The position numbers and the translations under genes are program-made. Shown here one piece after another: positions 71 to 55,023 of a stretch of DNA of 64,000 nucleotides (positions are counted from its first letter, which is position 1; each line of letters opens with the position of its first letter). The notes under the pieces are model-generated. The model saw nothing but the letters and a program-made list of their open reading frames with translations, did not search any database and was not told the origin of the DNA. Origin of the DNA: Prevotella melaninogenica (GTDB lineage: Bacteria > Bacteroidota > Bacteroidia > Bacteroidales > Bacteroidaceae); the NCBI RefSeq assembly GCF_018127925.1, contig NZ_CP072348.1, positions 937,501 through 1,001,500 on the forward strand, in the 5' to 3' direction.

Positions 71-127
71 GCACCATTGGTGCGAAGCACAAGCACGATA
101 TGTGCGAAGCCTTAGCACAACATGTGC
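71..127. repeat. Triplet palindrome array 1 (22-bp period)
   Basis: Three 13-bp units of the form GCAC-N5-GTGC start at 71, 93 and 115, exactly 22 bp apart, joined by 9-bp spacers that resemble GAAGCCTTA. The same architecture recurs at 7611, 27142, 35793 and 54967. It lies between the terminator of the protease operon and the left edge of the window. No coding function is visible. Confidence 0.85.
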
Positions 128-150
128 GCAGCAATATTACGTACAAAGAA

Positions 151-192
151 AGAGGGTATATCCAAGACACTAACGTCTAAGATATACCCTCT
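151..192 (-). terminator. Hairpin terminator of the SusC-protease operon
   Basis: A perfect 12-bp inverted repeat (151-162 with 181-192) with an inner AGAC/GTCT stem lies just beyond the stop codon of the last minus-strand protease gene. It fits an intrinsic terminator for that operon. Confidence 0.75.
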
Positions 193-215
193 AAAATATA
201 TGTTAACACGGAAGA

Positions 216-2759
216 TTAATCATTCATATAACGCTGAACACGCGCATACATCAACTCATACTGAGATTTGATAGTTGTATCCTTCGTTGTCTTAATGCGC
301 TCCTCAAGTAGTTTCTGCAGTTTCTGTGCATAGTGGAATACATATTCAGCTGTGCGGTCGATGGTCTCTGTCCACATCGTCTCTGGTTCACCATAACCAA
401 CACCAAAACCAAGGAAAGCCACATCCTGCTTATCATCACGCAAGCTGCGCACCTTACCAACCTGTCTTACCTCAACAATGTTAGCCTTCAGACGTTCAAC
501 ATAGAGTTGCTGCATGGCGATATCATCATCGTCAAGATTCTCATCACCAGCGATTGTCTTAGCCCAAACATTATTATACGTATCTTCGCAATATTCCAAT
601 GGAGAATAAGAAGTAGAGTCAGCATAATAGCTCAATGCTAAACGTGCGGTTGCAGAAAGAGCCATTTCCTGAATGCCACCTGCCAATGTCTTGTAAGGAT
701 GAGAGTTAATCTGAGGTAAACGGTTCTCGATACTCTCAACACCACGCTTACCAAACTTGTGTGCTTCTTGCAACAACCACATTGCAGCAGCACGTTGTTT
801 CTCCTTAGGCATCACCTCATAACGAGGAATACCAGAAGACTCTGTGGTCTGATTCAGCTTGATACCACCAATGACAGCATAGACATTACGAGCATAACCG
901 TAAGCCTGAGAAACCATTTGACGATAGAGCTTAGCCTTACGAGTACCATCAGTACCGTCTGGAATCCACTCATCAAAATGACTGAGGATATACTCAAGGT
1001 TCTTAAGACCATATGTACTTGACTTCACAGCATCGTCACCGAGATCCTCCTCAATGGCGGTTGGGTCATAACGATAACGTGACTGCTGAAGTACGTAACG
1101 ATACATTGGGTCGTTAGCATGAGACTCAACAAGTGCCATCAATGGCTTTACGTCATCTCTGAAACTCTTTGAGTTAGGGAAAACACGGTAGCCCCACTCT
1201 ATTGCATAGTTGTCATACACACCGAGGTAAGGAGGAGTCAGTGACACACCCTTATCTGTTGGCTGTGCAACATAATTGAAACGAGCATAGTCCATGATAG
1301 ATGCTGTCGTACCATACTTCTGTGTGAAGCTTGCAGAACGTAGCGAATCAGTTGGGATTGCAGCCGATGAAGCCATGTTGTGCATCAGTCCGAGTGTATG
1401 TCCTACCTCGTGAGTTACAATATACTCCAATGTTGGCAACAAAATGCTATCAGGCATATCCAATGTTCGTGCAGCAGGATCAATCTGTGATGTCTGAATA
1501 AATCGCCAACTATTGATGACATTCACAACATCATTATACACCAATACGGTCGCTGTGATAATCTCACCTGTACGTGGATCAACCCATGATGGACCCATTG
1601 CATTCTCTGTAGCAGTAGGCAGATAACGAATGCAAGAATACTGGAAGTTATCAGGATCGAAGTTTGGATCATTAGTTGGGAAGTCCACTGCCTGCATCAC
1701 ATTCTTAAAACCGATACGCTCGAAAGCCTTATTCCATCTTAGAACAGCTTGTCTTATCGCAGGCTTCCATTTTTCAGGGAACGCATTATCGATATAGAAC
1801 ACAATAGGTTTTACAGGCTCGCTAAGCTGACCAGCAAAGTAAGCTGCAGGATCTTTTGGCTCTAAACGCCAACGATTGATAAAGCTTGCATGGTCGATAA
1901 GACTGTCATTGACGATAGACTTCGGTGTAAGGAAGTAGCCAAGACGAGTATCACTTAGACGAGGAGTCATCTTATCCTCTGGCAAGAGAGCCAAAGTAAA
2001 CTGTACACCGATAGAAACTGGATGATTACTAATAGCAACATTACCACTGTTACCAGTCATGTTGGTAACATAGTTGCGCTCCATCGAGATACAAGCATTG
2101 TTTGCAAACGACTTCAAAGAAGTTACTTTAATCCACTCTGGCTTTAAGTCAGCATCCACACGATATGGACCAGCTATCTTTGCGATAACAGGGAAGTACT
2201 TGCTCTCTCTCAAGAAGAAAGAAGAAACATCAAAAAGAATACCACCAGTCTTCTTGTTTCTTGCCTTGATTGGGAAGCTATAGAAGTCAAGGTTACGATA
2301 GTTCGTAGCCTGTGCCTGCTTCGCATTACCTACTGGTAGGGCATCAAGTAATTCAGAGTTGATAGCCTGCATTACGATAGAGCTATCCTTCTCAACAAAG
2401 CGTACGTGTGAAACTGAACCAGCACGAGTACCAACCTCAGCAAACTGTGGGCTTGATACAGATGAAATTGTAGCACCAATCAGCATGTCACGACCGATAG
2501 AAGAAGGTGGCAACTCCATAAGGAGTTTCTCACCTGTTCTATAAAACGAAACGAATGGTCCCTTTGCTGAGTCTGTCTTCTCTTCGGTTAGAATACGCTC
2601 ATAGGCATCTTTCTTAACCACAGAAGTAGTGGTTGTAGCCTTCTTTTTCTTCTTTTTAAAGAAAGGGAAAGCTTGTGCTGACAGTGAAAGGCTCAAGAAT
2701 CCCACTGCTAATAGGGTTGCATGAACCGATTTCATTGATAAAAATGAAGTCTTTCTCAT
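216..2759 (-). CDS. Zinc-dependent metalloprotease (DUF5117/DUF4953-type), secreted
   Basis: An 847-residue protein predicted to be a zinc endopeptidase acting outside the cytoplasm. The N-terminus carries a signal peptide (hydrophobic run ending near SAQA), followed by a Lys-rich stretch. The extended zinc motif HEVGHTLGLMH is intact, with H450, H454 and H460 as likely zinc ligands and E451 as the catalytic base. A Met-turn-like SIMDYARF follows. The length and arrangement fit the large Bacteroidota zinc-dependent metalloproteases that carry DUF5117 and DUF4953 domains. The start codon overlaps the stop of the upstream paralogue by 4 bp (ATGA), so the two are probably translationally coupled. 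A second in-frame ATG eight codons in could also serve as the start. It is the last gene of an operon headed by SusC/SusD. The substrate is unknown; surface protein or peptide processing linked to SusCD uptake is an inference. Confidence 0.88.
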   Translation of the reverse strand: MRKTSFLSMKSVHATLLAVGFLSLSLSAQAFPFFKKKKKKATTTTSVVKKDAYERILTEEKTDSAKGPFVSFYRTGEKLLMELPPSSIGRDMLIGATISSVSSPQFAEVGTRAGSVSHVRFVEKDSSIVMQAINSELLDALPVGNAKQAQATNYRNLDFYSFPIKARNKKTGGILFDVSSFFLRESKYFPVIAKIAGPYRVDADLKPEWIKVTSLKSFANNACISMERNYVTNMTGNSGNVAISNHPVSIGVQFTLALLPEDKMTPRLSDTRLGYFLTPKSIVNDSLIDHASFINRWRLEPKDPAAYFAGQLSEPVKPIVFYIDNAFPEKWKPAIRQAVLRWNKAFERIGFKNVMQAVDFPTNDPNFDPDNFQYSCIRYLPTATENAMGPSWVDPRTGEIITATVLVYNDVVNVINSWRFIQTSQIDPAARTLDMPDSILLPTLEYIVTHEVGHTLGLMHNMASSAAIPTDSLRSASFTQKYGTTASIMDYARFNYVAQPTDKGVSLTPPYLGVYDNYAIEWGYRVFPNSKSFRDDVKPLMALVESHANDPMYRYVLQQSRYRYDPTAIEEDLGDDAVKSSTYGLKNLEYILSHFDEWIPDGTDGTRKAKLYRQMVSQAYGYARNVYAVIGGIKLNQTTESSGIPRYEVMPKEKQRAAAMWLLQEAHKFGKRGVESIENRLPQINSHPYKTLAGGIQEMALSATARLALSYYADSTSYSPLEYCEDTYNNVWAKTIAGDENLDDDDIAMQQLYVERLKANIVEVRQVGKVRSLRDDKQDVAFLGFGVGYGEPETMWTETIDRTAEYVFHYAQKLQKLLEERIKTTKDTTIKSQYELMYARVQRYMND

Positions 2760-5305: not shown

Positions 5306-5312
5306 TTGTATG

Positions 5313-6740: not shown

Positions 6741-6780
6741 AATTCGTCAATTATTTTAATCGTTATATCAATGAACGTAC

Positions 6781-7494
6781 TTATTCAGGATTGGCTGCAA
6801 AGTAAGCCTTCAACTTCTGAATATTTCTATAAAGCTGTGTCCAACTTCTTGTATAACGTATTGCCTTCTCAATCTCACTTGAATCTGAGTTATACAAAGA
6901 CAGGAGATAACGATACTTAGCTGGTGTATAAGCAGGAAGACCCATTGCTTGCAGTGTAGGATTGTCCCACCAGTATGGCTTTTCAAGCACATTATCAAAA
7001 GTAATCGTTCTCTTTAGTGCATTAGGGAAACGGACACCAAGGTCGTCAGATGCTTCCAAACGCAGAACAAGACGAATATTTTCGTTCTTAGTATCACTAA
7101 GATTCTGACGCAAAAGAACTACACGAAAACTTGATGCAAGACTATCGGCTGGAATTACTTGATCACTATTGATTGCCTCAAAGTGTACTCCTGCTTTGGC
7201 AGAACTACTTGGGTCAACAACTACCTTATAATGTTGTGCCTGTGACTTTCTCACTCCTGCAAGCTTAACTTTTACAGTAACCGTGTCTGTTGTCACACTC
7301 GTAGGCTGTGTTCCGAACGAATAGTTATATAATGTGTCAGAAGCATTATTGAGGTCGAAATAAACCTGGTTTGCTCCTTCGAAAGTACCATCTTTTGAGT
7401 ATTCACCTTTGTACTCATCGTTTGAACACGCTGCCAACGACAATGCGATGACACCGATAGCGAAGAAGTTTGTGATTGATTTATACATAATCAT
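6781..7494 (-). CDS. DUF4843-type lipoprotein
   Basis: The protein reads as a lipoprotein of about 237 residues from the ATG at 7494 (an ATG at 7488 is equally possible). An open frame continues upstream to 7614, but the added 40 residues are polar and would hide the signal peptide; the segment after 7494 has the expected short charged start, hydrophobic core and lipobox LAAC. The body is predicted all-beta, matching the DUF4843 lipoproteins that accompany SusC/SusD and PKD-like genes in Bacteroidota. It sits between susD (362 bp upstream) and the PKD-like gene (40 bp downstream). The family's biochemical role is not known to me. Confidence 0.72.
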   Translation of the reverse strand: MIMYKSITNFFAIGVIALSLAACSNDEYKGEYSKDGTFEGANQVYFDLNNASDTLYNYSFGTQPTSVTTDTVTVKVKLAGVRKSQAQHYKVVVDPSSSAKAGVHFEAINSDQVIPADSLASSFRVVLLRQNLSDTKNENIRLVLRLEASDDLGVRFPNALKRTITFDNVLEKPYWWDNPTLQAMGLPAYTPAKYRYLLSLYNSDSSEIEKAIRYTRSWTQLYRNIQKLKAYFAANPE

Positions 7495-7610
7495 TTGTTT
7501 TTTAGTGTTGTCCGATAAGCAATTTCCATGTAGCTTAGCCTTTTTCTCCCTTGTTATATAGGACTGTGACGACTTCGCTTTCCCATGTTTTGCCGATATG
7601 TTAAGTTTCC

Positions 7611-7667
7611 GCACATGTGGTGCGAAGGGTCAGCACGCATGGTGCGGAGGGCTAACACCAATGGTGC
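7611..7667. repeat. Triplet palindrome array 2 (22-bp period)
   Basis: Units GCAC/ACAC-N5-GTGC start at 7611, 7633 and 7655, again exactly 22 bp apart. The array lies inside the 362-bp spacer between the SusD gene and the DUF4843 gene, so on the operon transcript it would form a row of three small hairpins between upstream and downstream cistrons. Confidence 0.85.
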
Positions 7668-7773
7668 TGCATATTAGTTAGCTCATCAAAGAGCTTATAC
7701 TACTTAAGTATTATCGGATTACAATATTTGTTTTTATGTTTATATCTCTTCTTTTATACACTCAAGTCAGTGA

Positions 7774-7833: not shown

Positions 7834-7856
7834 CCATGCTAACTCTTTAATATGTA

Positions 7857-9314
7857 CTATTCGTTGTGTACAGCCTGATCACCGTACTCATTCTCTCTAT
7901 CTGGCCATGGGAGATTGAAGATGGCATCTGAAGGCTGATACGTGTCGATATTTCTGAAGTCAGTGAAACTACGGTTATAGTGCTTCAACGCATAGAAAGT
8001 CTGTCCCATACCTGGGAACTCACGCATACGCTCACGCATCATCTCCTGCTCGAAGAGTGTACGCGTAGCTACCTTAGCCGCATCTACATCACCCAGTCCC
8101 CTACTCTTTCTTACCTGATTGAGCAGACTGATTGCCTCTGTCTTATTTGTATCATAAAGACTTTCACTCAAAATATAATACATCTCTGGCAGACTAATTA
8201 ACACAAAGCCTTTCAACACGCCTCTTGTAGCCTCGGCATCATTCTGGATTAGACGGATAAAGCTGAAAGAGGATGCTGAACCTGACGTATTCTCTCTAAA
8301 GAAAGAGGTGAAACGGAGGTCAGAGCTAAGCGCTGTAAAGAGGTCGGTCTCATAGAGACTACGTGTATCACGACGACCCTCAACGAAAGAGCCGTAACCT
8401 GTAGAGCGCAGGAATGCTGTACGAATGGCTGTTGAACGATCGGCTGCATAAACACCGAAAATCATCTCCTTACTTGCTGGGAAACGCATCACAGAGTCAA
8501 GTGAAGTACTTGTATTCAGCTTAAAGTTCTGTGTAGCGTTGATGACTTCACGAGCATACTTTGCAGCTTCTGTGTACTTACCCATAGCGTAGTATACACG
8601 AGCTTTAGTAGCCTTTACTGCATACTTATTGAAAAGAATCACACGTCCCTTGCTATAATCACGTACGAAAGTATTATCGTATGTAACATCATTGTCGTCT
8701 GTCAACAATGAGTCAGCCTGATTCAAGTCCTTAAGAATAAGGTTGAACGTTGCCTGCAAGGTATAACGTGTGCGGTTCTTCAAATTGAACTCTGTTGCAT
8801 AAGGCAGACCAAGCGTGTTTGCATCACTGCGCGTATAGTCTGTACAGTAGAGGCGAGCGAGGTCGAAGTGCATAAAGCCACGCAGACCCAACGCCTCACC
8901 ATGAATCATCTTGCGCTCTTGTGCACCTGCACTAATATCATTAATGTGCCTCAACACATTGTTGACATTAGAGATATTGTTATACATATTGCTCCAAACA
9001 GCATCCACTACGTTGCGTGCTTGCTGGTTAGTATATTGGTAGCGATTCAGATAATAACTAACATCTTGTGTGTTGTCATAACCGAACTGTTGACCTAACT
9101 CATCCACCATACCCCATGAAAGGTTACTACCATAGAGGTTGGATGAAGCTAACTTACCGTAGATACCAAACATAGCATCCTCATAACCAGTAAGGTCAGT
9201 AAACATCTCGTCATCTGTAAGCTGTCCTTTTGACTGCACATCCAAGAAGTCGCTACATGATGTAAGCAAAGCAAACACCATGGATAGTCCTATATATTTC
9301 GTTATCTTCTTCAT
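7857..9314 (-). CDS. SusD/RagB family nutrient-binding outer-membrane lipoprotein
   Basis: A 485-residue SusD-family lipoprotein. The signal peptide ends in lipobox LTSC and is followed by the characteristic SDFLDVQ start of SusD-like proteins. The N-terminal part holds the TPR-like helical region (AxxxxNNVLRHI, residues about 100-130), the C-terminal part the usual SusD RagB-fold segment ending in LPWPDREN. Length is typical. It would cap the SusC barrel encoded 18 bp upstream and bind the ligand at the cell surface. The ligand cannot be read from sequence; the downstream proteases rather than glycosidases suggest a peptide or protein-derived substrate (inference). Confidence 0.93.
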   Translation of the reverse strand: MKKITKYIGLSMVFALLTSCSDFLDVQSKGQLTDDEMFTDLTGYEDAMFGIYGKLASSNLYGSNLSWGMVDELGQQFGYDNTQDVSYYLNRYQYTNQQARNVVDAVWSNMYNNISNVNNVLRHINDISAGAQERKMIHGEALGLRGFMHFDLARLYCTDYTRSDANTLGLPYATEFNLKNRTRYTLQATFNLILKDLNQADSLLTDDNDVTYDNTFVRDYSKGRVILFNKYAVKATKARVYYAMGKYTEAAKYAREVINATQNFKLNTSTSLDSVMRFPASKEMIFGVYAADRSTAIRTAFLRSTGYGSFVEGRRDTRSLYETDLFTALSSDLRFTSFFRENTSGSASSFSFIRLIQNDAEATRGVLKGFVLISLPEMYYILSESLYDTNKTEAISLLNQVRKSRGLGDVDAAKVATRTLFEQEMMRERMREFPGMGQTFYALKHYNRSFTDFRNIDTYQPSDAIFNLPWPDRENEYGDQAVHNE

Positions 9315-25935: not shown

Positions 25936-27060
25936 ATGAGACAAACAATTACTTTTGATAAGTTCATACGTTGGGCATTGATAGCACTTGCCGTTTTAGC
26001 AGTAGGATTTATTATCAATGCTCTTTCCGAGGTTCTTTTACCATTCTTTATAGCATGGCTAATAGCCTACCTCCTCTATCCTATCGTGAAGTTTGTACAG
26101 TATAAACTCCACGTACCAGGTAGAGCTTTGAGCATAATCATCACCTTTATATTGGTTGCAGCACTCTTTACTGCCATCTTCATGTTCATTGTTCCACCAA
26201 TGATCAATCAGGTTGATAAGTTTATGACGATTGTCAATCGCTATCTACATGAGACGACACATACCAATGACATAGCGACAATAATACAGAAATGGATTAG
26301 GGAGAATCAGACTGAAATTGAAAGATTCTTAAAGAGTCCTGACTTCACAAACACGATTAAGACCGCTATGCCGAAGTTATTCTCTGTAATAGGTCAGACG
26401 GCAAGTATCGTGATTTCTATCATTGCATCATGTATCACCCTACTCTATACCTTCTTTATCCTACTTGATTACGAGGTATTGACAAACAATTGGATTAGGA
26501 TATTCCCAAAGAACGTACGTCCTTTCTGGGCAGGATTGGCACAGGATGCTGAGCGAGAATTGAATAATTACATACGTGGACAGGGACTGGTTTCACTCTG
26601 TATGGGTATACTCTTCTGCATTGGCTTTACCATTATTGATTTCCCAATGGCTATCGGTATGGGAATCCTTATTGGTATTCTTAACCTCGTTCCTTATCTC
26701 CACACCTTTGCACTTATCCCAACAGCTTTCCTTGCATTGCTCAAAGCTGCTGATACAGGACAGAATTTCTGGATTATCTTTGCCTCTGCACTAATTGTCT
26801 TTGCGGTTGTACAGTTGCTTTCGGATATGGTGATAACACCAAAGATTATGGGTAAAGCTATGGGGCTCAACCCTGCTATTCTACTCCTTTCTCTCTCTGT
26901 TTGGGGTGCACTCTTGGGCTTTATCGGACTTATCATAGCCTTACCACTCACAACCCTTATCATTGCTTACTGGCAAAGATATGTCACCAAAGAGGGTGAT
27001 GGAGTTCAGGTAGAAAACATACCGGCTATTGCTGAGGAAAAGAAAGAAGATAAAGAATAA
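25936..27060 (+). CDS. AI-2E family transporter (PerM/YhhT-like permease)
   Basis: A 374-residue polytopic membrane protein of the AI-2E/UPF0118 family. The N-terminal four helices (AWLIAYLLYPIVKFVQ, about 15-95), a soluble segment (about 95-150), and C-terminal helices with the family PxxxGxxLGLxPxxxxLxxx-type features (PKIMGKAMGLNPAILLLSLSVWG) are present. Members have been linked to AI-2 export or Na+/H+ antiport; the substrate here is unknown. It is co-transcribed with tdk and followed by a terminator. Confidence 0.88.
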   Translation: MRQTITFDKFIRWALIALAVLAVGFIINALSEVLLPFFIAWLIAYLLYPIVKFVQYKLHVPGRALSIIITFILVAALFTAIFMFIVPPMINQVDKFMTIVNRYLHETTHTNDIATIIQKWIRENQTEIERFLKSPDFTNTIKTAMPKLFSVIGQTASIVISIIASCITLLYTFFILLDYEVLTNNWIRIFPKNVRPFWAGLAQDAERELNNYIRGQGLVSLCMGILFCIGFTIIDFPMAIGMGILIGILNLVPYLHTFALIPTAFLALLKAADTGQNFWIIFASALIVFAVVQLLSDMVITPKIMGKAMGLNPAILLLSLSVWGALLGFIGLIIALPLTTLIIAYWQRYVTKEGDGVQVENIPAIAEEKKEDKE

Positions 27061-27141: not shown

Positions 27142-27198
27142 GCACCAATGGTGCTTACCATGAACACCATATGTGTTAAGCCTTAGCACCATATGTGC
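27142..27198. repeat. Triplet palindrome array 3 (22-bp period)
   Basis: Units start at 27142 (GCAC...GTGC), 27164 (ACAC...GTGT) and 27186 (GCAC...GTGC), 22 bp apart. In the middle unit both ends changed together, A at the left and T at the right, keeping the palindrome. The array lies between two convergent terminators. Confidence 0.85.
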
Positions 27199-27418: not shown

Positions 27419-28381
27419 TTATACGTAAGACTCTAAGAACTTAACTGTTCCGGAAACCTTAACTGTTGTTGCTGTAGCTGGAAGGAGTACACTCTCACCT
27501 GCACGGAATGAGATAGTATTGCCCTCAGCATCAGTAATCTCACCCTCACCCTTAAGTCCAACGAAGATAACAAAAGAATCCAAATCACTATAGTCAAGCG
27601 TCATGGGTTCTGTAAGATCATAAACAGAAGTGGTGAAGTAAGGACAGCTAACGAGTTCTATAGGCTCATTCTGACGTGCCTCATACTGTGTGCGATAGTC
27701 TGGATAGACAGTATAATCAATGCACTCAGCAGCTTCCTTGGTATGCAACTGACGATAATTGCCCGCTGCATCCTGACGCTTGAAGTCATAGATACGGTAG
27801 GTTACATCGCTTGTCTCCTGTATCTCTGCCAAGAAACAGCCTGCACCGATAGAGTGAATACGACCTGCTGGCAAGAAGAATACGTCGCCTTCCTTCACAG
27901 GATATTCTGACAAAGCCTCAGTAATGGTGTCATTTTCAACCATTTCCTTGTATTGTTCTGGTGTAATCTGCTGCTTCAAACCACTGCGAAGAGAGGCATC
28001 AGCATCACTTTCCATCACATACCACATCTCAGTCTTACCACGACCTAAACCCTGTGCTTGTGCCTGCTCGTCCGTTGGATGAACCTGAATAGAAAGCTGC
28101 TCGCGTGCATCAATGAACTTAACAAGCAGAGGGAACTCATTGCCAAAGCGCTCATAGTTCTCCTTACCCACCAGTTTATCCTTCAATGTGTCAACCAGTT
28201 TGTTCAGTGTCCAGCCTTTATATTTGCCATTAGAGACAACACTCTCGTTGTCCTTAACACCTGAAATTTCCCAGCTTTCGCCCACCTGCTTCTGATCAGA
28301 AGTCAAATGCTTGAAAGGTACTATCTTTTCTCCACCCCAAAGGATAGACTTCAAAAGGGGATTAAACTTAAACATTTCCAT
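27419..28381 (-). CDS. manA: Mannose-6-phosphate isomerase, class I
   Basis: A 320-residue cupin-fold zinc enzyme interconverting mannose-6-phosphate and fructose-6-phosphate. Key features: PLLKSILWGGEKI at the start, LLVKFIDAREQLSIQVHPTDEQA (with zinc-ligand His in QVHP), GKTEMWYVM, and LPAGRIHSIGAGCFLAEIQETSDVTYRIYDF, which carries the second metal His and the catalytic Arg region. This is the short Bacillus/Bacteroidota form rather than the 390-residue enterobacterial one. It lies beside a secreted mannanase gene on the same strand but with its own promoter and terminator. Confidence 0.93.
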   Translation of the reverse strand: MEMFKFNPLLKSILWGGEKIVPFKHLTSDQKQVGESWEISGVKDNESVVSNGKYKGWTLNKLVDTLKDKLVGKENYERFGNEFPLLVKFIDAREQLSIQVHPTDEQAQAQGLGRGKTEMWYVMESDADASLRSGLKQQITPEQYKEMVENDTITEALSEYPVKEGDVFFLPAGRIHSIGAGCFLAEIQETSDVTYRIYDFKRQDAAGNYRQLHTKEAAECIDYTVYPDYRTQYEARQNEPIELVSCPYFTTSVYDLTEPMTLDYSDLDSFVIFVGLKGEGEITDAEGNTISFRAGESVLLPATATTVKVSGTVKFLESYV

Positions 28382-30015: not shown

Positions 30016-30224
30016 ATATTAGTAGTAAGTCGAAAAATTACCAACTTTACGAGCAATGTTTCCCTTTTAGGGAAGATGCATCTACTTATTAATACACCTA
30101 AGGCAAGTTTTTCCCTTACCCACATTGCTATTTTTAGAAGAATAAATCGTTCTTCCATCCAAACGTTTGGACGCTTTTCGTATTGCTTTAACAAAAGAAC
30201 AGAAGTTACTCATTAAGCAAAAAC

Positions 30225-30600
30225 ATGGCAAAGACAGTCAACTATCTACCCTATTATCATCTCCTTTTATTAAAAACCTTTTCATTTTAAGACTTCGAAA
30301 AACCGCAGGCAAGGATTTGAAAAATCATTACATAATTTCAAGAAAAACATCTATAAATAACGACAAAAGCACATACAAAAAGCATATCTGCAACTAACAG
30401 CAAATCAATTAGTTATAAAGTAGTAAAGCAAAAGGTGCTTAACTGGACTTCAAAAGGGCGTTAGTAAGGTGCTTAAAGGGCGTCTTTTGCAAGCTAAAAG
30501 GGCGTCTTTTAGAAGCCAAAAAAGCATGTATTGATTTTGAAGAGTATGAAAATAGTTTACAAACTTCAACTAATAAGAGAATACGTTGTTTGTAGAAGAC
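30225..30600 (-). repeat. Dispersed ~375-bp non-coding repeat, copy A (reverse)
   Basis: Read on the minus strand, this stretch aligns by eye with 46692-47068 and 63500-63872: a start with CAAACAAC.TATTC, GTAAACTATTTTCA, a block of AAAGGGCGT/ACGCCCTTTT motifs, TTGCAGAxxTGCTTTTTGTA, TTTATAGATGTTTT and TTTTTCAAATCCTTG. No reading frame is conserved among the copies. Boundaries are approximate. Together with the adjoining element it fills most of the 1-kb gap before metF. Confidence 0.75.
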
Positions 30601-30612
30601 AGATAGATATAT

Positions 30613-30958
30613 GGGTCTTCAGGATTTTGGAGTGATAAGTTTTGCCATTTAAGGTTAGGTTTCTGACGATATGTCACACGGAGAAAAGGAGAGGACGGAG
30701 GATTATAAGGAAAAGCAATGGAAGTCACGGAGGCACCGTCGGTGCGTAGAGCGACGGAGCTTGTTTGGCAATTCTATTAGTAATTTATATACAAAACGTT
30801 TATTCCAAAATATTTATCAAGAATCTGTAGGCTACATCTCCGTCGCTCTTTGTGCCGTCGGCACCTCCGTAATATTGCGTTTACCTCCGTCCCCTCCGTG
30901 ACTCCGTGTGCCTATTATATAAGACTTTTAGTTTATCACTCCATATTTCGGAAGAACC
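30613..30958 (+). mobile_element. Hairpin-rich 346-bp element with inverted ends, copy A (MITE/REPIN-like)
   Basis: Begins GGGTCTTCAGGATTTTGGAG and ends with the related inverse of GGTTCTTCCGAAATATGGAG. Inside, CACGGAGG-type arms containing the palindromes GCACCGTCGGTGC and GTGCCGTCGGCAC face each other around a 60-bp AT-rich centre, so the whole element can fold on itself. A second copy lies in the opposite orientation at 47097-47440. It encodes no protein; movement by a transposase elsewhere in the genome is an inference. Confidence 0.7.
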
Positions 30959-31033
30959 ATAAATACGCTTTTACTTTTTACTCTTTAACCGTTTTACTTA
31001 TCCAAACCTATCCTTTTTCTCACATTTATTTAC

Positions 31034-33372: not shown

Positions 33373-34725
33373 ATGGATTACAAAGATATGAAATTCAAGG
33401 TCTGGCATGGTTGCGACCGAGGCTTATGCCACAAAGGTTGTGGCAGACAAAACCACCAGTTGAACACATTCGACTGGCTGGCTGACGTGCCTGGAAACAA
33501 CCAGACAACTGACCTTGTTGAGGTTCAATTCAAGAATACTCGTAAGGGTTACTATCACAATGTCAATGACCTTGACTTGAAGAAAGGTGACATCGTGGCA
33601 GTTGAAGCTAACCCTGGACACGATATCGGAGTCGTTACACTGACAGGACGACTCGTTAAACTGCAGATTAAGAAGTCGTCAAGTGTGAAGTCACCAGACG
33701 ACATCAAGCGTGTCTATCGACTTGCAAAAGAAGTCGATATGCAAAAGTATCACGAGGCAAAAGCACGTGAACACGCTACAATGATTGAGAGCCGACAGAT
33801 TGCGAAGGGCTTAGGACTGAAGATGAAGATTGGCGACGTAGAGTATCAGGGCGATGGAAACAAAGCTATCTTCTACTACATTGCCGACGAACGTGTCGAC
33901 TTCCGTCAGCTTATCAAGGACCTTGCTGCTGCCTTCCACGTACGAATCGAAATGAAACAGATTGGTGCGCGCCAGGAAGCAGGACGCATTGGCGGTACAG
34001 GACCATGTGGTCGTGAGCTTTGCTGTGCTACTTGGATGAAGAATTTCTCCAGTGTTTCGACCACAGCTGCCCGCATTCAGGACATCTCACTCAACCCAAC
34101 CAAACTGGCGGGTATGTGTGCTAAGCTAAAATGTTGTCTGAACTATGAGGTTGACGACTATATGGAGGCGGGTAGAAAACTGCCAAGCAAGGAGGTTATC
34201 TTGGAGACTATGGATGGCGAATACTATCTCTTCAAGACGGATATCCTCAATGGTCAATGCACCTACTCTACCGATAAGAACCTTGCAGCCAATCTCGAGA
34301 CAATCAGTGCAGAGCGCGCAAAGGAGATTATCGAACTCAACCGACGTGGTGAGAAGCCTCTTTCGCTCCTTGAAGATGGTAAGGCAAAACCAGCTAAGAA
34401 GCCTGTTGACCTCCTCGCTGGTGCTGACCTCAGTCGATTTGATAAGGCAAAGAAACGCAAAAAGAACAACCAACCACGCAACAACAACGGTCAGCAAGGT
34501 GGTAGACCACAACGCGACAACCGTCGTAATCAGCGTGATGGACAGGACAACTACCGTCAGCCAAATGACAACAGACGTCCACAGAACGATAACCGTCGCC
34601 CTCAGAATGGTAATCGTCGTCCTTGTAACGGTCCTCGTCCTGCACAACAACAGAGCGAAGCTACTCCACAGAACAATAGAAATGAAGGCAGACAGCCTCA
34701 GCAAACAGAAAGAAAACAAGAATGA
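33373..34725 (+). CDS. PSP1-domain protein (RicT/YaaT-like) with Asn/Arg-rich tail
   Basis: About 450 residues from the ATG at 33373; the frame is open from 33289, but the added 28 residues have no family similarity and MDYKDMKFKVWHGCDRGLCHKGCG fits the N-terminus of Bacteroidota homologues. The PSP1 C-terminal domain lies at about 150-275 with conserved cysteines in GPCGRELCC and AKLKCCLNYE. Homologue RicT of Bacillus belongs to an Fe-S complex influencing RNA maturation. The C-terminal 110 residues are low-complexity and basic (repeats of NDNRRPQ), suggesting RNA binding. It overlaps gldH by 4 bp. Confidence 0.85.
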   Translation: MDYKDMKFKVWHGCDRGLCHKGCGRQNHQLNTFDWLADVPGNNQTTDLVEVQFKNTRKGYYHNVNDLDLKKGDIVAVEANPGHDIGVVTLTGRLVKLQIKKSSSVKSPDDIKRVYRLAKEVDMQKYHEAKAREHATMIESRQIAKGLGLKMKIGDVEYQGDGNKAIFYYIADERVDFRQLIKDLAAAFHVRIEMKQIGARQEAGRIGGTGPCGRELCCATWMKNFSSVSTTAARIQDISLNPTKLAGMCAKLKCCLNYEVDDYMEAGRKLPSKEVILETMDGEYYLFKTDILNGQCTYSTDKNLAANLETISAERAKEIIELNRRGEKPLSLLEDGKAKPAKKPVDLLAGADLSRFDKAKKRKKNNQPRNNNGQQGGRPQRDNRRNQRDGQDNYRQPNDNRRPQNDNRRPQNGNRRPCNGPRPAQQQSEATPQNNRNEGRQPQQTERKQE

Positions 34726-35216
34726 GACATAAGGTTTCCACCTTATTATATATCATAGCACTCATGGTAATTACCATGGGTGCTGCTTCATGCAGTGACC
34801 CACGCACCTATAATCAATATAGAAGTGTGTCACTACAGGGCTGGTCACGCAATGATACACTTTCTTTTGATATTCCTCGTCAATGGGAGGGTCACTATCA
34901 ATTAGACCTCTGCCTACGTGCTGCACAGACTTATCCTTACCGCAACATAAGTATGATTATTGAACGAAAGATAATCTACTACAGACAACGAAAGAAGCGA
35001 GAAAAGACATATAATGATACTATTAATTGTGAGATTATCAATGATAAGGGAATATTGGTAGGACAGAAAGGTATCTCAAATACAGAAATACGTCAGGCGA
35101 TTACCGCATTCCGTCTCAACCGCAATGACTCAATGCACGTCACGATACATCATATCATGAGCCGTGAGTTACTTCCTGGTATCAGCGATGTGGGTATCAG
35201 GCTCCTCAAGAAGTGA
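34722..35216 (+). CDS. gldH: Gliding-motility-type lipoprotein GldH
   Basis: A 164-residue lipoprotein: signal peptide with lipobox GAASC, then SDPRTYNQYRSVSLQGWSRNDTLSFDIP, typical of the GldH family. The remainder is a small beta-sandwich-like domain ending with ELLPGISDVGIRL. In gliding Flavobacteria GldH is needed for motility; non-gliding Bacteroidota keep the gene next to the PSP1 gene and holB, as seen here, with an uncertain envelope role. Translationally coupled to the upstream PSP1 gene. Confidence 0.9.
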   Translation: MRHKVSTLLYIIALMVITMGAASCSDPRTYNQYRSVSLQGWSRNDTLSFDIPRQWEGHYQLDLCLRAAQTYPYRNISMIIERKIIYYRQRKKREKTYNDTINCEIINDKGILVGQKGISNTEIRQAITAFRLNRNDSMHVTIHHIMSRELLPGISDVGIRLLKK

Positions 35217-35792: not shown

Positions 35793-35849
35793 ACACAAAT
35801 GGTGTTGATGCTTAGCACATGTGGTGCGGAGGCTTAACACCGATGGTGC
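35793..35849. repeat. Triplet palindrome array 4 (22-bp period)
   Basis: Units at 35793 (ACAC...GTGT), 35815 (GCAC...GTGC) and 35837 (ACAC...GTGC), 22 bp apart; a degenerate fourth partial unit follows at about 35860. The first unit again shows paired A/T end changes. It lies between the terminator and the end of rodA. Confidence 0.85.
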
Positions 35850-35907: not shown

Positions 35908-37383
35908 CTACTGACGGATAAGATTACGTCCTGCATCTATGCGGAGGAAAATAAATAGGAGCAACGTAAAGCCCCAAAGAGAAGAACCTCCGTAACTGAA
36001 GAAAGGTAACGGAATACCAATAACTGGCGTCAAACCTAATACCATTCCTACGTTAATAAAAAGATGGAATAGGAATATTCCTGCAACACAATAGCCATAG
36101 ACTCGCCCAAACTTAAAGGGTTGTCGATCGGCAAGGTACATTAATCGGAGTATTAGGAAAAGGAATAGCACAAGAACAGAGGCTGAACCGAGGAAACCCT
36201 CCTCCTCACCTACTGTACAGAAGATAAAGTCTGTATCCTGCTCTGGTACAAACTTCAACTTAGTTTGCGTACCATTCAAGAAACCTTTACCCTGTAAGCC
36301 ACCAGAGCCAATAGCTATCTCACTCTGATGTACATTATATCCTGCTCCTGCGAGGTCCTCATCTAAGCCTAAAAGTACGTTGATACGCACACGCTGGTGT
36401 GGCTGCATGACATCGTTCAACACATAGTCTGCTGAATAGAAAAAAGCTATTGACCCTAAAGCAAACAATGCAATATAGAAATAGTTAGCAAAGCGAGTGT
36501 TCATTGCATTATAAACTAAATAGCCAATAACACATGCCGATAAAATCAACTGAACCCAAACAACATCAAACGGAATAACAAACTCTGAGAAGAGCAAGGC
36601 AAGTCCTGTGACACCAAAGACATAAGTTAGCAATAGGCGCGTACGTCCTTTGTCGCCCACATAGACCCACACCATGACCGAAGAGAATATCTGAACAAGT
36701 AGGAGTACAACAAACTTTCCTAAGGACGTTGGTGTATCCCATAACAAGATTTCCTCATACTTGATTCCGACAACAAAGTAAATGACCATTGCCAGACCAG
36801 TGAATAGGAACGCACCAGACATTCCTTCACGATAAAGCATGAGGAAGAAAGAGAAATAAACCAAGGCAGAACCTGTCTCACGCTGTCCGACAATACACAG
36901 CATTGGTAGGAAAATGATTCCGCACGCACCAGCAAAATGCTTCCAATTCTTGATAGTAAAGCCATAAGCCGACATAAACTTGGCTATTGCTAATGCCGTT
37001 GCAAATTTCGCAAACTCGGCAGGCTGCAATCGGAGTGGACCCATAACGAGCCACGAGCGAGAACCCTTAATACTATGAGGATTAAAGATTGTGGCAAAGA
37101 GAAGGAGTACTAACAAACCATAGATGACATAAGCAAAGGTGTCATAGAAACGGTCGTCCATCATTAGAAGCACAAAGCCTAAACAGATGGAAGTACCAAT
37201 CCACACAATCTGCATACCCGAGCGGGTTGAAAGTGAGAAAATCTCTGTATCGCCATAAGTATAACTCGCACCGCAGACACTCACCCATCCAAAGGTGAGC
37301 AACGCAATATAGATACCTATCGTCCACCAATCTAATGAACGAAGTACACCTGGTTGTCTGTCTGCTGTATAATTACTTGGCAC
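35908..37383 (-). CDS. rodA: Rod-shape-determining peptidoglycan polymerase RodA
   Basis: A 491-residue SEDS-family glycosyltransferase that polymerises lipid II together with PBP2. The family blocks are visible: RSLDWWTIGIYIALLTFGWV at the start, GSRSWLVMGPLRLQPAEFAKFATALAIA, YPF-like HQRVRINVLLG, and the C-terminal GLTPVIGIPLPFFSYGGSSLWG. Ten or more membrane helices. The start codon is GTG at 37383, overlapping the pbp2 reading frame by 11 bp, indicating coupling. It is the last gene of the mreBCD operon. It is longer than E. coli RodA (370) through an enlarged central segment. Confidence 0.93.
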   Translation of the reverse strand: MPSNYTADRQPGVLRSLDWWTIGIYIALLTFGWVSVCGASYTYGDTEIFSLSTRSGMQIVWIGTSICLGFVLLMMDDRFYDTFAYVIYGLLVLLLFATIFNPHSIKGSRSWLVMGPLRLQPAEFAKFATALAIAKFMSAYGFTIKNWKHFAGACGIIFLPMLCIVGQRETGSALVYFSFFLMLYREGMSGAFLFTGLAMVIYFVVGIKYEEILLWDTPTSLGKFVVLLLVQIFSSVMVWVYVGDKGRTRLLLTYVFGVTGLALLFSEFVIPFDVVWVQLILSACVIGYLVYNAMNTRFANYFYIALFALGSIAFFYSADYVLNDVMQPHQRVRINVLLGLDEDLAGAGYNVHQSEIAIGSGGLQGKGFLNGTQTKLKFVPEQDTDFIFCTVGEEEGFLGSASVLVLFLFLILRLMYLADRQPFKFGRVYGYCVAGIFLFHLFINVGMVLGLTPVIGIPLPFFSYGGSSLWGFTLLLFIFLRIDAGRNLIRQ

Positions 37384-46601: not shown

Positions 46602-46691
46602 ATAAATTCATAGTTACAAGCCCTCTAAGAGTTGGAACATCCACAAGAAAATAAATTGAAACTTCAGCTATCTAAGTAGTATATCGTTCCA

Positions 46692-47068: not shown

Positions 47069-47096
47069 AAACACTAAGGTTCTTACGTTAAAATTT

Positions 47097-47440: not shown

Positions 47441-47487
47441 AAAACTATAAGGTAAGTATCCAAACATTTAATAAAGGAATCAAAAGA

Positions 47488-47518
47488 AAGGGCGATGATC
47501 ATTACGACCATCGCCCTT
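47488..47518 (-). terminator. Terminator of the TonB-operon TPR gene
   Basis: AAGGGCGATG (47488-47497) pairs with CATCGCCCTT (47509-47518) 25 bp beyond the TPR stop codon; on the minus strand it is followed by T-rich sequence. Confidence 0.85.
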
Positions 47519-47542
47519 ATATCTAATGATTGTTTCAAATAA

Positions 47543-48958: not shown

Positions 48959-49154
48959 AATTCTTTCTCTTTAAATTTTAATTCAAGTGAACTTTATTCA
49001 TTAAGACGCCTATCACGCCATTTAGTTTAATTCTGTGAGAGTAGTAACTAATGTTGATAAGCTAAATAAATCTTCTTTAATGTTATAACGACCACATTTA
49101 ATTAATCATAACTGATTATCGTTTGCCAATAAATAACACTCTATGCTTTACTGG

Positions 49155-50120: not shown

Positions 50121-50133
50121 ATAATATTTGCTT

Positions 50134-51015: not shown

Positions 51016-51048
51016 TGTTTTCTTTCTTTAATTGTTACTATTCAGTGA

Positions 51049-51735: not shown

Positions 51736-51747
51736 ACTTTGATCTCC

Positions 51748-52398
51748 TTACTTATTAGCTGCCTGCGCAGCCTTTTTAGCGTCCAACTGTGTGATCATAT
51801 AGTAATGGCTCTCATCCATATCCTGGAGTTCGCTCATTACCTTCTTAACGGTACCATAAGGAGAGTCAGAATCAGACTTGATAGCAAGTCTAACCTTAGG
51901 GTTCACCTGGCGGGCTGCGTTAACCCACTGTTGGAACTCAGTCATCTCCTGTCCTTGGATACTATCGAGAGGAATACCCATTTTAGGGAGTTCTTTACCA
52001 CGCTCAGCAGCTGGCTTTGATAAATAAGCAGCTAACTTATCGAGCGGAGTACCAAATGTAGACTCAGCAACAAAAGTTTTCTTCTGTGCAGGAGTCAATG
52101 TAATGCCCATATTATCTACGATCTGTCCCAACTCATTGGTATTATCGTAGCTCAAGAAAACCTGGCCTTCGCCAGTAGGCTTTCCTGTAGGTCCCTTTTC
52201 AGGACTCACAAGAATTGTCAAGACACCATTCTCAGGCACCTTAGTTTCAGACACAGAACCTGGAGTATTTACCTTCACTGGCTCGTTCTTAACGAACGTT
52301 GATGTCAGCATGAAGAAGGTAAGCAACAGGGTCATAACGTCTGACATAGGCGTCATGTCGATAAAAGTGTCATTCTTCTTAACTTTTACTTTACCCAT
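51748..52398 (-). CDS. exbD: ExbD/TolR family biopolymer transporter, first copy
   Basis: A 216-residue ExbD: TFIDMTPMSDVMTLLLTFFMLTSTFVKNEPVKVNTPGSVSETKVPENG, with the conserved Asp in PMSDV, then an enlarged periplasmic domain (about 55-216). Sequence differs clearly from the downstream copy, so the two are not a recent duplication. It follows exbB by 30 bp. Confidence 0.9.
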   Translation of the reverse strand: MGKVKVKKNDTFIDMTPMSDVMTLLLTFFMLTSTFVKNEPVKVNTPGSVSETKVPENGVLTILVSPEKGPTGKPTGEGQVFLSYDNTNELGQIVDNMGITLTPAQKKTFVAESTFGTPLDKLAAYLSKPAAERGKELPKMGIPLDSIQGQEMTEFQQWVNAARQVNPKVRLAIKSDSDSPYGTVKKVMSELQDMDESHYYMITQLDAKKAAQAANK

Positions 52399-52428
52399 AG
52401 CGATAAATTATTAAAGGGTTAGCAAAAA

Positions 52429-53268
52429 TTAAGCCTCGTCTGTATGGTTTACTTCGTATGTCTGAGCGATAGAATAACCAACCTCGTCGAGGGCGAAAGT
52501 CAACTTGTCAACCTTGTTAGAGTAGTAACCATAAGAAACTACCGCACACCAAGATGTTGCAATACCGAATGCGGTGTTGATCAACGCCTCAGAAATACCA
52601 GCAGAAAGTGCAGCAGAGTCAGCACCACCACCTGCAGCAAGAGCAGAGAACGACTTGATCATACCGGTTACAGTACCGAGAAGACCAGTAAGAGTACCAA
52701 GTGTTACGAGAGTAGCAATGATAGGGAGGTTCATTGTCAGAGTTGGCATCTCGAGCTGAGTAGCCTCCTCGTGAGCCTGCTGAATCTTAGCTACCTTCTG
52801 AGCCTTCTTAAGGTTAGCATTAGCACCAGTCTCCATATCCTTGTAAGCGTTCAAAGAAGCCTTAACAACGTTTGCTACAGAACCCTTCTGCTGATCGCAG
52901 AGCTGGTTAGCCTTAGCAAGGTCATTAGCGTTAAGAGCACTCTTGATGTTTGCAACGAACTTTGGAAGGGCACCCTTACCGAAAGCAGTCTTCAAAGCCA
53001 TCCAACGCTCGATAGACATAGCGAGCACTGTCAACAAGAGAGTGTGGATAACAGGAACGACTACGCCACCCTTAAAGATGGTACCCCAAACGTCTGCTGG
53101 GTTCTCACGTGCAGCTCCATCCTGGAAGTGCATCTCATTACCGAACCATGTGTAGAACAATGTGAACGCAACGACAGCGCAAACGACGATAATCCAGAAT
53201 GCACCTCTAACTCCTGTGAAGCCCTCAGCCTTTTTCTGTGGGGCTGGTTTTTGTTGTGTAGTTGCCAT
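52429..53268 (-). CDS. exbB: MotA/TolQ/ExbB proton channel family protein
   Basis: A 279-residue inner-membrane motor subunit with three helices: about 20-42 (GAFWIIVVCAVVAFTLFYTWF), 70-90 and 180-235. The ExbB core LTMNLPIIATLVTLGTLTGLLGTVTGMIKSF and ISEALINTAFGIATSWCAVVSYGYYSNKV is complete. An N-terminal helix segment rich in Gln/Pro/Lys (QQKPAPQKKAEG) precedes. First gene of the TonB operon; a promoter lies about 120 bp upstream. Confidence 0.93.
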   Translation of the reverse strand: MATTQQKPAPQKKAEGFTGVRGAFWIIVVCAVVAFTLFYTWFGNEMHFQDGAARENPADVWGTIFKGGVVVPVIHTLLLTVLAMSIERWMALKTAFGKGALPKFVANIKSALNANDLAKANQLCDQQKGSVANVVKASLNAYKDMETGANANLKKAQKVAKIQQAHEEATQLEMPTLTMNLPIIATLVTLGTLTGLLGTVTGMIKSFSALAAGGGADSAALSAGISEALINTAFGIATSWCAVVSYGYYSNKVDKLTFALDEVGYSIAQTYEVNHTDEA

Positions 53269-53391
53269 AATTTGATAAAATTTTAATTTTTAGGTTATTA
53301 ATGAATTAATTTGTTAATATCTTTCTGATTTATAAGCATTTGTATCTTACCGCCATTATAAAAGGGAGTTCAACACTGCTTCTTATCTCCG

Positions 53392-53399
53392 CAAAGATA
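53392..53399 (-). promoter_or_regulatory. Promoter -7 box of the exbB-exbD-tonB operon
   Basis: TATCTTTG on the minus strand preceded by CTA and followed by GCGG; leader about 118 nt. No good -33. Confidence 0.55.
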
Positions 53400-53496
53400 G
53401 TAATTAAAAGAAAACTACAGCTACGATTAATAACATTTAACAGTTATAAATGTACAGTTTCTATCTCATCTTTATTACTATCTGCATTTCCGATTC

Positions 53497-54690
53497 CTAT
53501 TTAAGTTTTGAAAGTACTTCTTTAATACGACGAAGAGCTTCCTTTATATTTTCATCACTTGTCGCATAACTCATTCTAAAACAGTCTGGAGCACCAAAAG
53601 CATCACCACCCACTGTTGCTACACATCCTTCTTCAAGAATATACATAGCAAGGTCGGATGAGTTATTAATCACATGTTTGCCATCTGTCTTTCCAAAGAA
53701 GCTGGAGCATTTAGGGAAGAGATAGAATGCACCTTGTGGCACATTTACCTCAAGTTCAGGGATTTCTTTTGCCAAACTAACAATCAGATCACGACGACGA
53801 CGGAATGTCTCTCGATACTCAGCTACACAAGCTTGATCCTCAACATATGCCGCAACAGCAGCCATCTGACTTACGCTACATGTACCTGACGTATATTGTC
53901 CTTGCAACTTATTAAGACCTTTTACAATCCACTCTGGTGCTGCGACCCAACCAATTCTCCAGCCAGTCATAGCATAAGCCTTACTAACGCCGTTACAAAG
54001 AATCGTACGTTCTTTCATTCCAGGGCAAGATGAGATACTGCAATGACCGCCTATATAATTAATGTGTTCGTAAATCTCATCTGAAAGAACAAACACGTCT
54101 TTATGCGCCAAGACAACCTTTGACAAAGCCTCCAACTCCTCTGCAGTATAGACACTACCAGTAGGATTACTTGGAGAGCAAAGAATTATCATCTTTGTCT
54201 TTGGTGTAATAGCTTTCTCTAACTGCTCTGCGGTAATCTTAAAGTCTTGCTCGATTCCTGCAGAAACAACAACAGGAACACCACCTGCGAGTTTAACCAT
54301 CTGCGGATAGCTCACCCAATAAGGTGCAGGAATAATCACCTCATCACCTGGATTCACCAAAGCCAAAACAGCATTGCAAACACCTTGCTTACCACCAGTA
54401 CCGACAATAATCTCTGATGCAGCATAATCAAGATTGTTTTCATCTTTCAGCTTCTTTGAGATAGCCTCTCTCAAAGCAGGATAACCAGGAACAGGAGAAT
54501 ACTTAGAGAAGTTATCATCAATGGCCTTTTTGCCCGCCTCCTTAACATGATCAGGAGTCATGAAGTCTGGTTCACCCACACTCATGTTGATAACATCAAT
54601 TCCCTGCGCTTTCATTTCACTACTCTTCTGCGACATTGCTAATGTCTCAGAAGGCGCCAATCGATTTAAACGATCTGATAATTGTGCCAT
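53497..54690 (-). CDS. aspC: Pyridoxal-phosphate aminotransferase (aspartate aminotransferase type)
   Basis: A 397-residue class I/II aminotransferase of subgroup I-beta. SVGEPDFMTPDHVKEAGKKAI, YSPVPGYPALREAIS, the PLP-phosphate loop VGTGGKQGVCNAVLA, LCSPSNPTGSVYTAEEL, FVLSDEIYEHINY, the Schiff-base Lys in NGVSKAYAMTGWRIGW and the C-terminal Arg in CFRMSYATSDENI are all present. Aspartate is the usual substrate; related amino acids are possible. Monocistronic, with a promoter 37 bp upstream. Confidence 0.92.
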   Translation of the reverse strand: MAQLSDRLNRLAPSETLAMSQKSSEMKAQGIDVINMSVGEPDFMTPDHVKEAGKKAIDDNFSKYSPVPGYPALREAISKKLKDENNLDYAASEIIVGTGGKQGVCNAVLALVNPGDEVIIPAPYWVSYPQMVKLAGGVPVVVSAGIEQDFKITAEQLEKAITPKTKMIILCSPSNPTGSVYTAEELEALSKVVLAHKDVFVLSDEIYEHINYIGGHCSISSCPGMKERTILCNGVSKAYAMTGWRIGWVAAPEWIVKGLNKLQGQYTSGTCSVSQMAAVAAYVEDQACVAEYRETFRRRRDLIVSLAKEIPELEVNVPQGAFYLFPKCSSFFGKTDGKHVINNSSDLAMYILEEGCVATVGGDAFGAPDCFRMSYATSDENIKEALRRIKEVLSKLK

Positions 54691-54727
54691 TTCGAACTTT
54701 ATCTTTCTTTATAAATAATATCAAGTA

Positions 54728-54760
54728 CAAAAGTACGCAAATTCATTTTGATAACGCAAA
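54728..54760 (-). promoter_or_regulatory. Promoter of aspC
   Basis: TACTTTTG (54735-54728) with TTTG 21 bp upstream (54760-54757), both on the minus strand. Confidence 0.7.
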
Positions 54761-54966
54761 TTTTCTTTCTTTATTTTATCTATATAACATTTTTACTGCC
54801 GATTTGACAGTTTAAATTAAACAATTATATAACAAATGAACTCTTTATAAACAAAACTATACAAACTAATATTCTATTCCTTCATCTTTATACCTATCGA
54901 AAAACATTCCCGAAAGACTAAAAACAAACCCTTCTCATGCATTCTTTTGTATAATGAATGCCGTCC

Positions 54967-55023
54967 GCACGATGTGTGCTAAGCCTCCGCACAACTCGTG
55001 CTAAGCGTTCGCACCATCCATGT
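54967..55023. repeat. Triplet palindrome array 5 (22-bp period)
   Basis: Units at 54967 and 54989 (GCAC-N5-GTGC) and a decayed third unit at 55011 (GCACCATCCATGT), 22 bp apart with spacers TAAGCCTCC and TAAGCGTTC. Located in the 524-bp gap between the aspC promoter and the ribBA terminator; nothing else in that gap is recognised. Confidence 0.8.

Follow-up and report, generated by a model that had tools for sequence, protein, structure and literature searches.

Phased arrays of short dyads between the genes of Prevotella melaninogenica, a candidate docking platform for a DNA-binding protein

Two described families of intergenic repeats come closest to the element considered here. PINSR (PMC4755523) is described as a repeat of about 188 bp that is found between genes in more than 100 copies. 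One strain has 177 and another 184, with some three quarters of the places common to both; the repeat has no coding content, and the publication leaves its function unexplained. In the account of BrickBuilt (PMC4596501), Porphyromonas gingivalis carries 19 intergenic elements, miniature inverted-repeat transposable elements (MITEs), which consist of a leader, tandem 23-nt repeats and a tail. The present analysis concerns five intergenic arrays of short dyads at 22-bp steps in a stretch of 64,000 nucleotides from Prevotella melaninogenica (hereafter the window, C2:937501-1001500). The genome, G000 in our numbering, measures 3.36 Mb and comprises contigs C1 (1.45 Mb) and C2; other G-numbers denote sampled relatives, with G056 as the main comparison. 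A literature search did not find 22-bp dyad arrays described in Prevotella.

The arrays combine strict phase, selection on half-sites, strand independence, dispersal and the same architecture in several lineages. Each array is probably a multi-operator docking platform on double-stranded DNA for a candidate dimeric DNA-binding protein. Usually four 17-bp operators of the form GTGY-N9-RCAC would be joined by 5-bp linkers, and because the resulting steps are 22 bp, all operators would lie on one helix face. An oriented, degenerate element of about 200 bp between genes would enclose the platform. A dimeric, sequence-specific protein would read the GTG and CAC half-sites and would presumably bind neighboring operators cooperatively. 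Its likeliest role would lie in chromosome structure, by bridging DNA locally or by setting domain boundaries, and less likely in regulating individual genes.

Phasing and abundance of the arrays

The term core is used here for CAC-N5-GTG, and a perfect pair or triple consists of cores spaced exactly 22 bp apart. In the window, RCAC-N5-GTGY was found 17 times versus 3.2 expected, a number reached in none of 100 shuffles, and nine exact 22-bp pairs were present versus 0.00 expected from the same shuffles. The original prediction had placed five arrays of exactly three units here. All of its positions were confirmed and 14 of the 15 units are exact, the unit at 55011 being imperfect (GCACCATCCATGT). 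Exact single copies outside the arrays are located at 30733, 47309 and 56246.

The spacing was then measured over 860 kb of the P. melaninogenica genome and 400 kb of G056 (1.26 Mb together). In the three stretches, 46, 38 and 48 pairs of cores were 22 bp apart and 17, 17 and 19 were 44 bp apart, and any other distance up to 120 bp was represented by at most two pairs. The strict period and helical phasing that had been predicted are thus borne out. In the 860 kb, a scan for dyads of all trinucleotides gave its strongest signal for the family CAC-N5 with spacings of 22 and 44 bp. Weaker signals came from GCA-N7 and CTT-N4 at 22 bp and from AT-rich words at 12, 14, 21, 34, 44 and 46 bp. Three units turned out to be only the most common number: among 52 P. 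melaninogenica arrays, 38 have three cores, 12 have two and two have four, and orthologous arrays can differ by whole 22-bp units. The 23-bp steps of ACCCA-N5-TGGGT (or CCCA-N5-TGGG) dyads, five units at L034:8305-8410 (C2 near 1028305), were considered as a second array type and rejected, as this was the sole instance in five stretches scanned and is a minisatellite. The relative G056 has a CAC array at that place.

Genome-wide, P. melaninogenica has 245 perfect pairs and 92 perfect triples, which corresponds to about 150 arrays: 92 triples and, provided that longer runs are uncommon, 61 pairs. The mean density is about one array per 22 kb over both contigs and one per 10-16 kb in stretches studied in detail. 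In the family sample, seven of 301 genomes contained triples: G056 (99), P. melaninogenica (92), G108 (19), G178 (13), G150 (4), and G022 and G185 (2 each), the triples of the last two seemingly being tandem repeats of another kind. In the genus sample, triples were found in seven of 150 genomes: G428 (102), again G056 and P. melaninogenica, G420 (6), G433 (6, all of them a perfect minisatellite), G309 (1) and G323 (1). The order sample, which is poor in relatives, gave triples in P. melaninogenica alone (one of 295 genomes, none of the 294 others).

Twenty genomes were also picked from the best matches to the RodA gene, and 11 of them have pairs. The counts were high in G487 (290), G474 (274), G475 (243), G492 (226) and G468 (144), intermediate in G469 (22), and low in G433 (9), G303 (4), G454 (4), G323 (2) and G466 (1). 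No CAC pairs were found in the other nine (G380, G479, G478, G455, G470, G291, G460, G371 and G005). Among eight genomes of named loci, pairs were found in Segatella buccae ATCC 33574 alone, 21 in number, at places identical to those of G150. A reversed control pattern also scored, with 39 pairs in G487 and 15 triples in G329, and gave none in most genomes. Spacing and dyads are kept in the relatives that carry the arrays, in agreement with the conservation check proposed earlier.

Constraint on the half-sites and the register of the dyad

Selection was assessed on 34 syntenic arrays that could be aligned across (19 between P. melaninogenica and G056, 13 between G056 and G428, and two between G178 and G056). 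Uncovered arrays were excluded, and only units intact in the source genome were counted, those already degenerate there being left aside. The CAC and GTG letters changed at one of 528 positions. The N5 changed at 30 of 442 (Fisher P 6e-10), the rest of the N9 at 25 of 415 (P 1e-8) and the flanks up to 150 bp at 630 of 9039 (P 7e-15). The Y and R positions changed in five of 119 cases and the A and T of the N9 in six of 118; beyond 150 bp, which is mostly genes, the count was 2740 of 59987. An earlier, smaller count at 20 loci, which included degenerate units, gave 6/354 for CAC/GTG versus 24/295 for the N5. The sole change in the main count is at c2 207454; the same alignment contains gaps of 7, 15 and 1, the first two amounting to one split indel (7+15). 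Other array indels between orthologs were 22, 22 and 44 bp, with one 1-bp gap at c2 408883. This pattern is what would be expected if a protein recognized six letters per dyad and helical phase were maintained. Together with the phasing, it favors the candidate function of the original prediction in which the arrays are a binding platform for a protein.

The other candidate named there was a triplet of RNA hairpins, and A and T replacing both outer bases together in two units had been taken as selection on the palindrome itself. Hairpins with 4-bp stems and five-base loops can indeed be drawn, and transcribed arrays could act as terminators, 3'-end stabilizers or protein-binding RNA. Covariation was therefore tested on 283 cores, which include orthologous copies and are hence non-independent. 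The outer base pairs comprise 21 A...T, 55 A...C and 46 G...T, and 178 are complementary versus 171.5 +- 6.4 expected (P 0.18), so that the argument from paired outer bases is not upheld. The loop-closing pairs gave 115 complementary versus 103.8 expected (P 0.08) and the next pair 134 versus 145.9 (P 0.98). In the spacer, complementarity is below chance for the outer two pairs (z -2.9 and -4.0), and the inner three show no significant deficit. Pairs about the array center deviate both ways: z is +2.6 at distance 6 and +2.1 at distance 21, and several values are negative. RNAalifold energies were no better than those of column shuffles (forward -4.85 versus -6.10 +- 1.36; reverse -4.48 versus -5.56 +- 1.34), and the covariation term was about zero on both strands. 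Rfam at gathering thresholds gave no match at the arrays, the only match in the window being a tRNA gene (59634-59707, + strand). A conserved hairpin was rejected on the covariation tests and the comparison with column shuffles, and we regard the RNA explanation as improbable. Since the outer bases do not covary and the RNA fold is unsupported, the footprint of a protein on double-stranded DNA is the best reading.

To describe the surroundings of the arrays, 81 elements (52 from P. melaninogenica and 29 from G056) were oriented by likelihood. Flanks are conserved on both sides, and the array therefore appears to lie inside an oriented, degenerate element of about 200 bp. This length is approximate, and six breakpoint cases gave segments of 219 to 463 bp. 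A sensitive profile search over the 1.26 Mb added four (el0) or two (el2) places, mostly weak, to the 81.

The dyads are real, and CAC-N5-GTG is probably a misreading of their register. When the positions of the next core beyond each end of an array were inspected, the inward half was often complete: in S. buccae, for which 14 of 17 pair-bearing places were used, the left GTG was present in 14/14 and the right CAC in 12/14. The corresponding figures are 16/52 on each side in P. melaninogenica, 24/59 and 19/59 in G056, and 8/14 and 2/14 in G428. The outer half of that core was complete in no case in S. buccae, G056 or G428 and in two (left) and none (right) in P. melaninogenica. The right CAC lies one base farther out in 15 of the 81 oriented elements. 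These end half-sites suggest that the repeating dyad is a 17-bp GTGY-N9-RCAC (GTG-N11-CAC), present n+1 times per n cores and so usually four times per array, with the N5 as a linker. In this clade, A and T tend to occupy symmetric places in the N9 (0.83 and 0.83 in one slot), and these letters are not conserved between orthologs, as their count above indicates.

Placement, turnover and the weight of the evidence

Gene context was determined with a simple open reading frame (ORF) caller, and gaps of at least 200 bp (n = 385) served for comparison. As predicted, the arrays avoid genes: 80 of the 81 elements are intergenic, and in a wider set 122 of 125 arrays are, the other three lying within an ORF of at least 80 aa. 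Co-directional gaps hold 39 elements, convergent gaps 29 and divergent gaps 12, versus 209, 95 and 81 of the comparison gaps. The excess in convergent gaps would suit transcribed hairpins. The 12 elements in divergent gaps speak against them, and so does the neutral orientation relative to co-directional genes (19 versus 20). A further possible explanation is that an ordinary transcription regulator controls a large regulon through these dyads as its operators. Their 17 bp is a usual size for an operator dyad. However, elements are found in all gap types, divergent gaps are under-represented and the ten neighbor proteins scanned in the window are diverse, which makes an ordinary regulon as improbable as the hairpins. 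High copy number and clade-specific words also recall the dialects of DNA-uptake sequences in natural transformation, and the arrays could be species-specific uptake signals. This is very improbable, as the arrays number only one per 10-16 kb in the stretches read, are phased and multi-unit and are almost never in genes, and known uptake words are far denser.

Within the window, array 1 spans 71..127, with cores at 71-83, 93-105 and 115-127. Array 2 (7611..7667, cores at 7611, 7633 and 7655) lies between a SusD-like ORF (7857-9314, - strand) and a DUF4843 ORF (6781-7614, - strand). The mechanically called GTG start of the latter overlaps the array by 4 bp and is probably too far upstream. Array 3 (27142..27198, cores at 27142, 27164 and 27186) is flanked by convergent genes, an AI-2E-family transporter ORF (25936-27060, + strand) and a mannose-6-phosphate isomerase ORF (27419-28381, - strand). 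Array 4 (35793..35849, cores at 35793, 35815 and 35837) is on the 3' side of an FtsW/RodA ORF (35908-37383, - strand), and on its other side the nearest ORF of at least 100 aa is gldH-like (34722-35216, + strand). The syntenic places of G056 align across arrays 1 to 4. Array 5 (54967..55023) has cores at 54967 and 54989 and the imperfect third. Another dispersed repeat, about 800 bp long and composed of two halves of about 460 and 350 bp, occupies positions 30150 to 30964 approximately. It contains the lone RCAC-N5-GTGY at 30733; dozens of matches to it were found in G056 and G178, and more in P. melaninogenica.

Array 5 provides the one clean empty site among six breakpoint cases. A 226-bp segment (54862..55087) with a 4-bp TATA repeat at its flanks (54858-54861 and 55084-55087) is absent from the syntenic place of G056, and it may be an insertion in P. 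melaninogenica or a deletion in G056. In four of the other cases 1.7-3.9 kb of other sequence stands in place of the array, and in one case 320 bp. Alignments covered 19 of 23 syntenic arrays from P. melaninogenica to G056 and 19 of 24 in the other direction, and 30 of 53 P. melaninogenica arrays had no synteny in the part of G056 compared. For G056 to G428 the figures were 13/14, for G428 to G056 12/14 and for G178 to G056 2/3.

This turnover raises the explanation that the elements are a non-autonomous, MITE-like mobile family, in which the array would consist of transposase or recombinase binding sites and old copies would be fossils. The oriented flanks common to the elements and the presence or absence of array 5 with its TATA repeat are in its favor. 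So is the fairly recent amplification of a comparable repeat in G380 described below, and avoidance of close neighbors could reflect target immunity. On the other hand, fossils would lose CAC and GTG at the flank rate, yet one of 528 letters changed versus 630 of 9039, and there are few decayed copies. Only one of six cases has a clean empty site. A search for the Y1 transposase (PF01797, the only transposase family searched) gave no match in P. melaninogenica, and the control was positive in five of 14 known genomes. The mobile-element explanation accounts for dispersal and turnover and does not account for selection on old copies, and as a full account we consider it unlikely. It may nevertheless hold together with the docking-platform reading, the element spreading and being kept where it is useful.

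The distribution along the chromosome bears on the domain-organizing role raised in the original prediction. Gaps between arrays of less than 3 kb were seen twice versus 14.3 expected, summed over four stretches. By stretch, the P values for this avoidance were 0.62, 0.009, 0.001 and 0.15, the P. melaninogenica and G056 stretches being partly orthologous. Perfect parS words are present at C2:1487234 and C2:1488063, with one more on C2 that has one mismatch, and no parS-like word with at most one mismatch was found on C1. Skew over the C2 tiles above 0.6 Mb is somewhat noisy and changes sign near 1.56 Mb and near 0.62 Mb. Arrays on C2 lie around the presumed origin, marked by parS at 1.487 Mb, as well as around 0.6 Mb, and are thinner at 1.06-1.42 Mb (seven in nine tiles). 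Marking of origin or terminus was set aside for lack of a clear bias on C2, though density on C1 is uneven. A domain-organizing role is a candidate compatible with these data. As a separate observation, a canonical parS of G056 (C1:62851-62866; L059:2851-2866) overlaps the first bases of a CAC array whose first core starts at 62864, and G428 has the same overlap at C1:92784-92799.

Several points weigh against the docking-platform reading. Given the gain and loss of elements between close relatives, any one platform seems to be dispensable. Only a third of this clade's arrays have complete outermost half-sites, so that the case for a register of four dyads comes chiefly from S. buccae. A dyad of six letters would also carry little information unless binding is cooperative. 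Spacing between arrays is only weakly more even than chance, with coefficients of variation of.80,.69,.75 and.76 versus.87,.92,.90 and.82 (combined z 1.8). A bias of arrays toward origin or terminus on C2 is not clear, and C1 has 20 pair-bearing places in its first 0.8 Mb versus 34 in the remaining 0.65 Mb, an unexplained difference in density of about twofold. Finally, no candidate for a DNA-binding protein emerged from the genes that adjoin arrays in S. buccae as well as in this clade. Three shared neighbors were inspected and, judged from their letters, are an RseP-like protease, a GH97-like glucosidase and a mannanase-like protein, none of them DNA-binding. They were set aside as a clue to the protein; by a rough estimate, the overlap of neighbors does not exceed chance.

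The same architecture with other letters, and known systems

In 60 kb of G380, which belongs to the intermedia clade and has no CAC pair, a repeat of up to about 230 bp was found in six copies, one of them shortened. It holds dyads such as GTTTTGC-GAT-GCAAAAC with 5-bp linkers and 22-bp steps. A search of seven genomes with this repeat gave 286 first-look candidates in G380; scoring of 40 of these yielded 77 matches that include second-strand matches of the palindromic core and are not copy counts. Matches elsewhere numbered 65 in G478, 57 in G455 (whose RodA gene is identical to that of P. aurantiaca JCM 15754) and seven in G479. There was one weak match in P. melaninogenica (E 6.5e-4) and none in G056 or P. 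bivia. Many of the listed copies in G380 are about 190 bp long and most are 83-89% alike, which points to a fairly recent amplification. From its length, abundance and clade, we infer that this repeat is PINSR.

The architecture was also sought at 80 loci of other species (1.47 Mb), chosen for their RodA gene and not for arrays. Their titles are mostly Prevotella, Hoylesella, Segatella, Xylanibacter or Prevotellaceae, with two given as Bacteroidales only. None of the 80 has a CAC pair. In the period scan, the first setting (three dyads, threshold 18) gave 12 arrays at period 22 versus a mean of 1.00 and a maximum of 3 at other periods; all other settings were tried afterwards. Four consecutive odd-centered dyads of any sequence were found 16 times at period 22 versus a mean of 0.72 and a maximum of 2 over 18 other periods (14-32), and even-centered dyads twice versus 0.78. 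Looser settings gave a smaller excess: for three dyads, 20 versus 5.7 (maximum 11) at threshold 17 and 58 versus 37.8 (maximum 53) at threshold 16, and for four dyads at threshold 20, 29 versus 11.5 (maximum 20). The result is thus clearest at the strictest settings and small at the loosest. Applied to stretch c2 of P. melaninogenica, the scan found eight of 29 known arrays at period 22, so it misses most arrays, and it gave four matches at period 23.

The 16 period-22 arrays come from 13 of the 80 loci, 15 are intergenic, and their units are on average identical at 10 to 17 of 22 positions. The letters of the dyads differ between species. Five loci (L110, L115, L117, L120 and L143) each have two arrays with similar half-sites, and L143 has a third with different letters. 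Since other Prevotella have this architecture with half-sites of their own, the specificity of the protein may have changed together with the arrays between lineages. More tentatively, and with more doubt than confidence, the arrays could belong to a chromosome-organizing system specific to Prevotella and its relatives. Such a system would pair a fast-evolving dimeric protein with at least about 150 matching platforms per genome, of about four operators each, with invariant spacing and lineage-specific letters, spread and replaced by a moving element.

Common human oral bacteria thus carry, in each genome, more than 100 non-coding elements that are conserved and so far lack an explanation, and little is known about chromosome organization in Bacteroidota. 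The arrays are a ready bait for finding the binding protein, and the 22-bp phase with lineage-specific letters makes co-evolution of protein and site directly testable. A common description can also be offered for the unexplained PINSR repeat and the arrays of P. melaninogenica.

The arrays share features with four kinds of known system. Dispersed palindromic protein sites such as parS and those of Noc, matS and SlmA are similar in kind. The present sites differ in being arrays rather than single sites, in their lack of clear bias on C2 and in having no known protein. The REP, BIME and REPIN families are likewise dispersed extragenic palindromes that are arrayed and come in lineage-specific versions. 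In contrast to them, the arrays have a fixed 22-bp phase and no hairpin covariation, in a genome with no match to the Y1/RAYT family PF01797; an origin as REP or REPIN with RAYT was rejected because that search was negative and compensatory hairpin changes were not found. BrickBuilt (PMC4596501) resembles the arrays as an intergenic element with tandem short repeats in a related organism. It differs in its near-identical 23-nt minisatellite units, as compared to a 22-bp step, about 150 elements, strongly diverged units and dyads under selection. PINSR is also intergenic, of similar abundance (about 150 arrays here) and of similar length to the oriented element of about 200 bp. The half-sites of the PINSR-like repeat in G380 differ (GTTTTGC..GCAAAAC versus GTGY..RCAC), and a profile of the present clade's element did not detect that repeat, nor any similarity of flanks, in the 60 kb of G380 (best E 2.3). 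The core of the PINSR-like repeat nevertheless consists of dyads at 22-bp steps, as in the P. melaninogenica arrays, a feature that is absent from the definition of PINSR as published (PMC4755523).

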